A stretch of 64,000 bases of DNA, from NCBI RefSeq assembly GCF_003151135.1, contig NZ_QEQK01000001.1:168829-232828 (forward strand), given 5' to 3'. This document shows, piece by piece, positions 47,602-50,286 of the stretch (its first letter is position 1; every line of letters starts with the position of its first letter). Made by a program: the position numbers and the translations under genes. Source of the DNA: Abyssibacter profundi (GTDB lineage: Bacteria > Pseudomonadota > Gammaproteobacteria > Nevskiales > OUC007). Below the pieces are notes generated by a model. That model saw nothing but the letters and a program-made list of their open reading frames with translations. It searched no databases and was not told the DNA's origin.

Positions 47602-48835
<1,234 letters not shown>

Positions 48836-48849
<14 letters not shown>

Positions 48850-49249
48850 CCCGTTCGCGCCACCAAGACCGAGCCGATTTTCCCGCGAGCCCAGGCGGAG
48901 TGAGTGCCGCTTGGTCATTCCAAGTCAGCGAACGACACGAATGCGTCGGGAACGTATTCGGACGGCCGCAGGCCGGCCCGAAGGGCGAAGCGCATGGACG
49001 CGCTTCGCAACGCAGGATCGCGGGAAAACCGGCCCGTTCCGTCAGGATTGCGCCTGCAAACCGGCCAGACTGCGTTAGTCGGCGCATCCATGCGCCTCCC
49101 CCGGTGGGCCCGCCTTCGGCGGTTTCAATTCGCTCCCGGCGAATGGGTGCTCGTCGTTCATTTGGAATGACCAAACTTCGCTCCTCGCGCCTTGCCTGGC
49201 CTGTTTGCAGTCAGCAACTTGGCGCCGCGAACGGGTCAGTGTTTCCCTA
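48836..49249. mobile_element. 414-bp palindromic element (MITE-like), no coding capacity
   Basis: The ends are 24-bp perfect inverted repeats (48836-48859 and 49226-49249; TAGGGAAACACTGA then CCCGTTCGCG). Internal landmarks match at equal distances from both ends: TTGGTCATTCCAA at offset 75, GCGCATGGA at offset 154 and AACGCAG at offset 173. So the whole 414 bp is one in-register imperfect palindrome. Flanking 4-mers are CTAG (left) and CTAA (right), both YTAR, the target type of IS5-group elements, whose ends also begin GGAA. It lies between convergent genes; the symporter TGA and the flippase TAG stop are both inside its ends. No transposase frame is present. The gap between the genes holds nothing else. 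Confidence 0.75.
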
Positions 49250-50170
49250 ATCGGCGGCGCGGCGCTGCTGCAGGGTCGGCGGCCGCCCGACGGGGAGCAG
49301 CAGGCCGGCCAAACCGAACACGACGGTCACCAGCAGGACCAACAGGTGCAGGTCAACCGCGGCGGCCAGCATCGCGTCCGGGCCCGCCCCCCAGAGGGCG
49401 GCCACCCCCACCAGGGCGCCTTCATAAGTCCCGGCGCCTGCGACACCATGCACCGGCAACACGAATGACAGTTCACCCGCCACGGTGGCAGCGGCAGCGG
49501 CCTGCAGGGGTAGCTCGACCATGAGCATCAACACGGCCGCCAGCGCGAGAAACTTGCTGTACCACGACAACACGGTCCATGCATAAAGCCTGCGCCATTG
49601 GATGGGGGCTTTGGCCAGCATGTCGCCCACCCAGGCCAACACCCAGCCACGACGCGGGAACCGCTCTCCAAAACGCCGCAGCAACCAGAATCCGGCCGGC
49701 ACCATGGCCAGCCACGCGATCTGACCCAGCAAGGCCGCCGCCCAACCGTACCGCCCCAACATCACGCCCAGCAGGCCAGCACCGAACAGACAGTGGAGAT
49801 CGAACAGCCTGAGCCACACCAACGTCGGGAAGCTGTCCCGTAATCGCAGGCCAAAGTAGCGGGACATGAGCCAGGGAAAGGCGGCTTCTCCCGCCCGTGC
49901 GGGCAGCAGACTGTTGGCGGTGACGTGGATGCAGGACAAGCGCAGCACTGCCGTGAACTGACCTGCCGTAACCGGCAGCGTGGCCAATTGCATACGCGCA
50001 GCGCGAGCCCCATACGAAACCGCCATCAGCAACACGAAGGCCAGATGTACCCACAGCGGCAGCGCCAATGCACGCTGCATCGCCTGGTCCCAACCGACCC
50101 GCTGCTGGAACACGACAAGCAATGCCAGCAGCAGAGCAAGGCCGATGATTCCGGATAGCGTGCGTTTCAC
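49247..50170 (-). CDS. Lysylphosphatidylglycerol synthase TM region/UPF0104 family membrane protein
   Basis: A 307-residue protein with about eight hydrophobic helices. It shows the family motif Ala-Asn-Ser-Leu-Leu-Pro-Ala-Arg-Ala-Gly-Glu near residue 90 and Pro-Val-His-Gly-Val-Ala-Gly-Ala-Gly-Thr-Tyr-Glu-Gly later, typical of the flippase half of MprF-type proteins without the synthase half. It may flip a lipid across the inner membrane. GTG 50170 has GAGG upstream. Its TAG stop lies in the right end of the palindromic element. Confidence 0.88.
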   Translation of the reverse strand: MKRTLSGIIGLALLLALLVVFQQRVGWDQAMQRALALPLWVHLAFVLLMAVSYGARAARMQLATLPVTAGQFTAVLRLSCIHVTANSLLPARAGEAAFPWLMSRYFGLRLRDSFPTLVWLRLFDLHCLFGAGLLGVMLGRYGWAAALLGQIAWLAMVPAGFWLLRRFGERFPRRGWVLAWVGDMLAKAPIQWRRLYAWTVLSWYSKFLALAAVLMLMVELPLQAAAAATVAGELSFVLPVHGVAGAGTYEGALVGVAALWGAGPDAMLAAAVDLHLLVLLVTVVFGLAGLLLPVGRPPTLQQRRAAD

Positions 50171-50229
50171 TGGCGCCTCGTTAGCCCGACCGGGTGCGGT
50201 CGCTTCCCATGAAGACAAATGCCCTGCCC

Positions 50230-50258
50230 CAAACAAACAACGGGCCCCGAAGGGCCCG
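50230..50258 (-). terminator. Rho-independent terminator of fadE
   Basis: Minus-strand CGGGCCC and GGGCCCG pair around a TTCG tetraloop, then GTTGTTTGTTT. It starts 29 bases past the fadE stop. Confidence 0.8.
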
Positions 50259-50286
50259 CTGCATCCATCACAGAACTCCGTAGCGG

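Follow-up and report, generated by a model that had tools for sequence, protein, structure and literature searches.

Here we present an element of 414 bp, lying between two convergent genes in the stretch of the Abyssibacter profundi genome that we analysed (64,000 nucleotides, hereafter the window), which we take, with a probability of roughly 60%, to be a non-autonomous mobile element that targets TA, depends on its own fold for movement and is served by an enzyme acting in trans, REPIN-like in its logic and distinct in its anatomy. A single strand of the element folds into a terminal stem and two hairpin arms, A and B, and in the mechanism we propose the enzyme supplied in trans would recognise the folded terminal stem together with arm B; the fold so recognised may be single-stranded DNA, extruded DNA or an RNA copy. 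Only elements with pairable ends would be copied, and once landed a copy would decay, without compensation. Insertion is at YTAR and duplicates the TA. The copy in the window landed at the 3′ end of a symporter gene and provides the stop codons of both adjacent genes.

At its two edges the window copy carries the same 24-mer, TAGGGAAACACTGACCCGTTCGCG, exact and in opposite orientations (chance expectation 0), and its two 207-bp halves align with a score of 76, compared with 17.5 for the best of 200 shuffles. Identical inverted ends and homologous halves had both been claimed in an earlier reading made from the letters alone (the sequence-only reading), which also gave the flanks as CTAG and CTAA, placed the stops of the symporter and flippase genes inside the element and denied it any coding capacity. 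These claims hold: the flanks and stops are as described (Table 1), and neither of the two open reading frames tested within the 414 bp matches any Pfam family. The copy is a long version of the element, having both a left and a right optional module.

Table 1. The window copy, its parts and the two neighbouring genes (positions in the window).
Feature	Position	Strand	Remarks
Whole element with duplicated TA at both edges	48836..49249	.	TAs at 48836-48837 and 49248-49249
Element proper, GGG..CCC	48838-49247		
Left terminal inverted repeat (5′ strand of terminal stem P1)	48836..48859	+	Copy-specific, matches right end
Right terminal inverted repeat (3′ strand of terminal stem P1)	49226..49249	-	
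Arm A	48873..49033	.	Strands 48873-48887 and 49019-49033; diverged inverted homologue of arm B
Arm A inner hairpin CTTGGTCATTCCAAG	48910..48924	.	
Optional left module	48936..49007	+	About 71 bp; four small hairpins; presence varies among copies
Arm B, with sequence-conserved core	49052..49212	.	Strands 49052-49068 and 49196-49212
Optional right module	49077..49147	-	About 63 bp; mirror homologue of left module; boundaries +/- few bases
Core hairpin TTTGGAATGACCAAA	49161..49175	.	Preceded by CTCGTCG; common to the gammaproteobacterial carriers
Dicarboxylate symporter gene (SDF, PF00375)	47602..48849	+	Stop TGA 48847-48849, inside element
LPG_synthase_TM gene (PF03706, "flippase")	49247..50236	-	Stop TAG 49247-49249

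Two genomes of the same genus (G001 and G002) lack the element at this locus, where it is thus no conserved gene tail. The sequence-only reading had the native 3′ ends of both genes replaced by the insertion, and for the symporter this is right, because the homologue in G001 and G002 continues past position 48836 to a stop of its own (tails ..EQTLLVDARS* and ..EPTRLVASGR*). The flippase gene, on the other hand, shows only a stop at the TA/G boundary, its TAG being made up of the target TA and the G with which the element begins, and it is missing at this locus in G001 and G002, where an acyl-CoA dehydrogenase gene lies within about 130 bp of the symporter homologue. In the window, the interval between the symporter and acyl-CoA dehydrogenase genes is where this LPG_synthase_TM gene stands (49247-50286).

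A search of the whole 3.74-Mb A. profundi genome found the element in about 40 places, and a count of the core string alone gives 28. Being multi-copy and non-coding, with terminal inverted repeats and insertion into sites that are empty elsewhere, it has the general features of a MITE, and its earlier description as a non-autonomous insertion is borne out. The copies occur in four module states, the two mirror-placed modules (inverted homologues of each other) being present independently, and the basic form without them is about 270 bp long. In one copy (L042:1001-1296, at G000:C1:143738-144033) the left module is doubled in tandem and the right half is missing. The left module seems to be an independent small element, because in another genus it stands by itself, with its four hairpins (L039:1500-1577, in genome G021); there it sits in a duplicated fragment of tRNA-Met, with the intact tRNA-Met adjoining at 1640-1716. 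The repeat also breaks the assembly, since several copies terminate contigs, and copy-specific matched ends suggest contig joins that assembly has split, for example at the ends of C3 (L054) and C17 (L073).

Besides the window locus, six further loci that carry a copy in A. profundi are contiguous and unoccupied in G001, G002 or G003, as anticipated by the claim that relatives lack the insertion. At L067 the empty site reads GTGT[TA]AGATTC, a single locus that fits a TA or a TTAA duplication equally. Over 60 members with intact ends, however, the flanks take the form xTA...TAy, in which x is a pyrimidine in 90% and y a purine in 83%, and x and y vary independently (TG 17, CG 17, TA 7, CA 5); therefore only the TA is duplicated, inside a YTAR target. 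The YTAR target named in the sequence-only reading is thereby retained, with a duplication of 2 bp and not of all four. Because the element begins GGG after the TA, a TAA or TAG stop that it interrupts is restored as TAG. In another locus (L155:1750-2314) two elements stand head to tail with one common TA (CCCTAGGG), as expected if the edge of one element is a YTAR target for the next.

The fold was assessed on an alignment of 50 dereplicated members, drawn among others from Pseudomonas, Azotobacter, Chromohalobacter, Porticoccus and the Salinisphaerales. Their consensus consists of the terminal stem, arm A, a small hairpin and arm B, and 65 of its 80 pairs show compensatory changes. In the terminal stem 96.3% of the cells are paired and 21 of 24 pairs are compensatory, with a covariation of 0.796 against 0.179 in shuffled and 0.10-0.14 (maximum 0.138) in slid alignments; in the arms 96.5% are paired and the covariation is 0.675 against 0.188 shuffled and at most 0.138 slid, where the absolute score is somewhat flattered by deriving and counting the two-arm structure on the same alignment, while the controls made by sliding score far lower. 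The sequence-only reading had foreseen one giant hairpin, and this is indeed how the module-bearing window copy prefers to fold as RNA by energy (−238.6 kcal/mol, z −11.9, against about −212, a rough sum of the separately folded halves and the outer stem). As the conserved fold we reject it, since the interior of the long hairpin is paired in 68.4% of cells with a covariation no different from that of shuffles (0.150 and 0.146), and evolution keeps the terminal stem and the two arms instead. Energy folding gives stem plus arms in 44 of the 50 members, and one-armed relatives, from which arm A is missing, still have both the terminal stem and arm B. That the core 25-mer never varies in this alignment is in part an artefact, the 25-mer having served as the search string; when mismatches are allowed, the loop varies and the TTTGG/CCAAA stem largely persists. 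The covariation shows that copies preserve the fold rather than the terminal sequence. Among the non-Watson-Crick cells, counted on the plus strand with kinship ignored, arm A has 44 GU and 10 AC, and arm B 7 GU and 19 AC, as if each half folded on the strand that is read inward from its own end.

The ends themselves vary from copy to copy and yet match within each. Across 20 A. profundi copies, the two ends agree at 19.4 of 21 positions within a copy as opposed to 17.1 of 21 between copies (columns 4-24), and within-copy matching of this degree was reached by none of 20,000 permutations. The outer columns 3-22 are variable between copies, column 24 is unmatched and the matching is limited to about the outer 22 bp; one copy (L068) has poorly matched ends, and copies elsewhere in the genus behave in the same manner. 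Ends that are variable but matched suggest that the mover recognises how the element folds rather than one set sequence at its ends. Comparing the ends of paralogues within the genome gives 413 two-sided and 323 one-sided changes (over copy pairs, which are non-independent). Orthologous copies have 18 one-sided and 0 two-sided changes at the ends (12 non-independent pairs), and 25 and 1 over all stems, in three groups that hold perhaps 18 independent changes and may include dead copies. Since vertically inherited copies change one-sidedly, the matching seems tied to transposition and not to a host function, and we infer that complementarity of the ends is either imposed by transposition or selected during it, and is not maintained afterwards in place.

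That pairing is not maintained in place argues, on this small sample, against two rival explanations. In one of them, which we consider very unlikely, the element is a structured RNA or two-way terminator at the 3′ ends of genes, kept by host selection. Such a role would agree with a very stable fold and with the gene context in A. profundi, where 3′ ends make up 28 of 40 scorable flanking gene sides and convergent genes enclose 10 of 20 scorable copies (figures from a purpose-made ORF caller and for this genome only, the context in the wider set having been discarded as unreliable). Placement at 3′ ends also follows, however, from a YTAR target that restores TAG and TAA stops, no clearly shared site was seen among the same-genus copies fetched, and, beyond the one-sided changes in inherited stems, the G-U bias indicates one strand for arm A and the other for arm B. 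Template-switch correction is a known mutational process at imperfect palindromes, and in the other explanation, the least likely of those considered here, it is such correction, acting in place on a quasi-palindrome, that matches the ends, and the matching has no part in mobility. The confinement of matching to the outermost bases fits such a process, but orthologous copies show no co-correction, and arms A and B retain fixed mutual differences in nearly all A. profundi copies and have not been homogenised.

As for the enzyme that would move the element, neither it nor an autonomous relative turned up in a non-exhaustive survey of transposase families and lone ends. None of the 120 named loci listed is a version that carries an open reading frame between the same ends, and lone arms, in A. 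profundi and in genome G407, are only deletion derivatives and contig-end halves. The sequence-only reading favoured the IS5 group; this label fails, because the duplication is a 2-bp TA in the 60 members and the A. profundi genome has no DDE_Tnp_1 (PF01609) transposase, and an IS5 partner was rejected accordingly. It is likewise unlikely that we are dealing with an ordinary MITE of an IS5- or IS630-type DDE transposon, whose terminal repeats are read as double-stranded DNA and whose palindrome is incidental. The YTAR target and the GG(G)AA-type ends do recall IS5-group MITEs such as MITEPsy1 (PMC3189936), which has a CTAG/YTAA-like target, short inverted ends starting with GG and no gene, but MITEPsy1 measures 100 bp, makes a 4-bp duplication and has six identical-ended copies in the strain studied, and here the duplication is 2 bp and the ends are copy-specific. 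The TA duplication is found also in the IS630-linked RUP (PMC2229807), and RUP and Correia/NEMIS (PMC2229807) share with the element a terminal TA, inverted ends and stem-loop transcripts; the two-arm fold that covaries across the class sets it apart from them, and no IS630 partner was found. DDE_3 is absent from G001-G003, the IS630 elements of two relatives have unrelated ends, and the sub-threshold DDE_3 match in A. profundi turned out to be an IS3-type OrfB, so that an IS630 partner was rejected as well. Moreover, ends that are read as sequence should be conserved rather than hypervariable with matching only within a copy, and covariation of the arms would be unexpected.

By analogy, the logic of the element is closest to that of REPINs, which are described as palindromic replicative units with compensatory changes and hairpin or clover folds, associated with RAYTs, in Bertels and Rainey 2011 (PMC3116915). 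Both are non-autonomous and mostly extragenic, and both are built of inverted units. That the element is itself a REPIN-like repeat moved by a RAYT (a Y1 transposase) through a hairpin or clover fold of the single strand is nevertheless distinctly unlikely. There is one Y1_Tnp gene in A. profundi, but the element does not flank it, and the element-rich genomes G002 and G003 (94% and 98% complete) have no Y1_Tnp at all; with presence uncorrelated with the element, a RAYT partner was rejected. The anatomy differs too, as REPINs conserve their ends and vary their spacer and the element does the reverse, its terminal stem varying and its arm core being conserved. It is also larger, at about 270 bp, and duplicates TA at YTAR, a duplication that does not appear in the REPIN description consulted (PMC3116915). 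CGTC-tagged REPs, short units with stems of 8-9 bp and no dedicated transposase known (PMC3733652), resemble it as palindromic units that carry CGTC next to a hairpin and often occur as oppositely oriented pairs. Here, by contrast, the CGTC is several unpaired bases away from a 5-bp stem, and the whole is some 270 bp with terminal repeats and a TA duplication.

Outside A. profundi, a scan of named genomes with the arm-B core gave at least 120 loci, and the carriers among the matches listed include Pseudomonas, Stutzerimonas, Azotobacter, Alcanivorax, Chromohalobacter, Salinicola, Porticoccus, Nevskia, Thiodiazotropha and uncultured Salinisphaerales. Most of the matches listed are 266-272 bp long, with ends YTAGGG..CCCTAR that are lineage-specific yet matched within a copy. 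The core, within two mismatches, is present in 21 of 369 genomes sampled evenly from the class, a patchy distribution with up to 42 core matches, and the reversed pattern gave 0 matches in the same genomes. The type of member known from S. stutzeri occurs in 4 of 72,556 plasmids and in none of the phages searched, and the plasmid gene tables that were checked, which do not list repeats, carry no annotation of the element. Copies in G407 are 99-100% identical to one another, and therefore mobility has been recent somewhere. In Rfam no family exceeded the gathering threshold for the window copy, 15 other loci had no match, and the only weak match, mir-3180, was spurious; a limited search by sequence string, of a kind rarely printed in papers, and by topic found no published description. 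We tentatively suggest, as a possibility to which we give less than even odds, that this is a transposable DNA of the Gammaproteobacteria at large, mobilised through the fold of its ends and arms, and not through a set terminal sequence, by a still-unrecognised enzyme, inserting at YTAR and duplicating TA.

The usual explanation for small palindromic repeats is a transposase that reads a fixed sequence at their ends. In this family the ends are free to drift and yet stay complementary across many genera, and complementarity is lost after vertical inheritance, which makes selection on structure at the step of transposition testable with this element. For the enzyme, the search target would be one common to recently active genomes such as G407. 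In practice, the element matters also because it is unannotated in the plasmid tables that were checked, often lies at the 3′ ends of genes (in A. profundi) and breaks assemblies.
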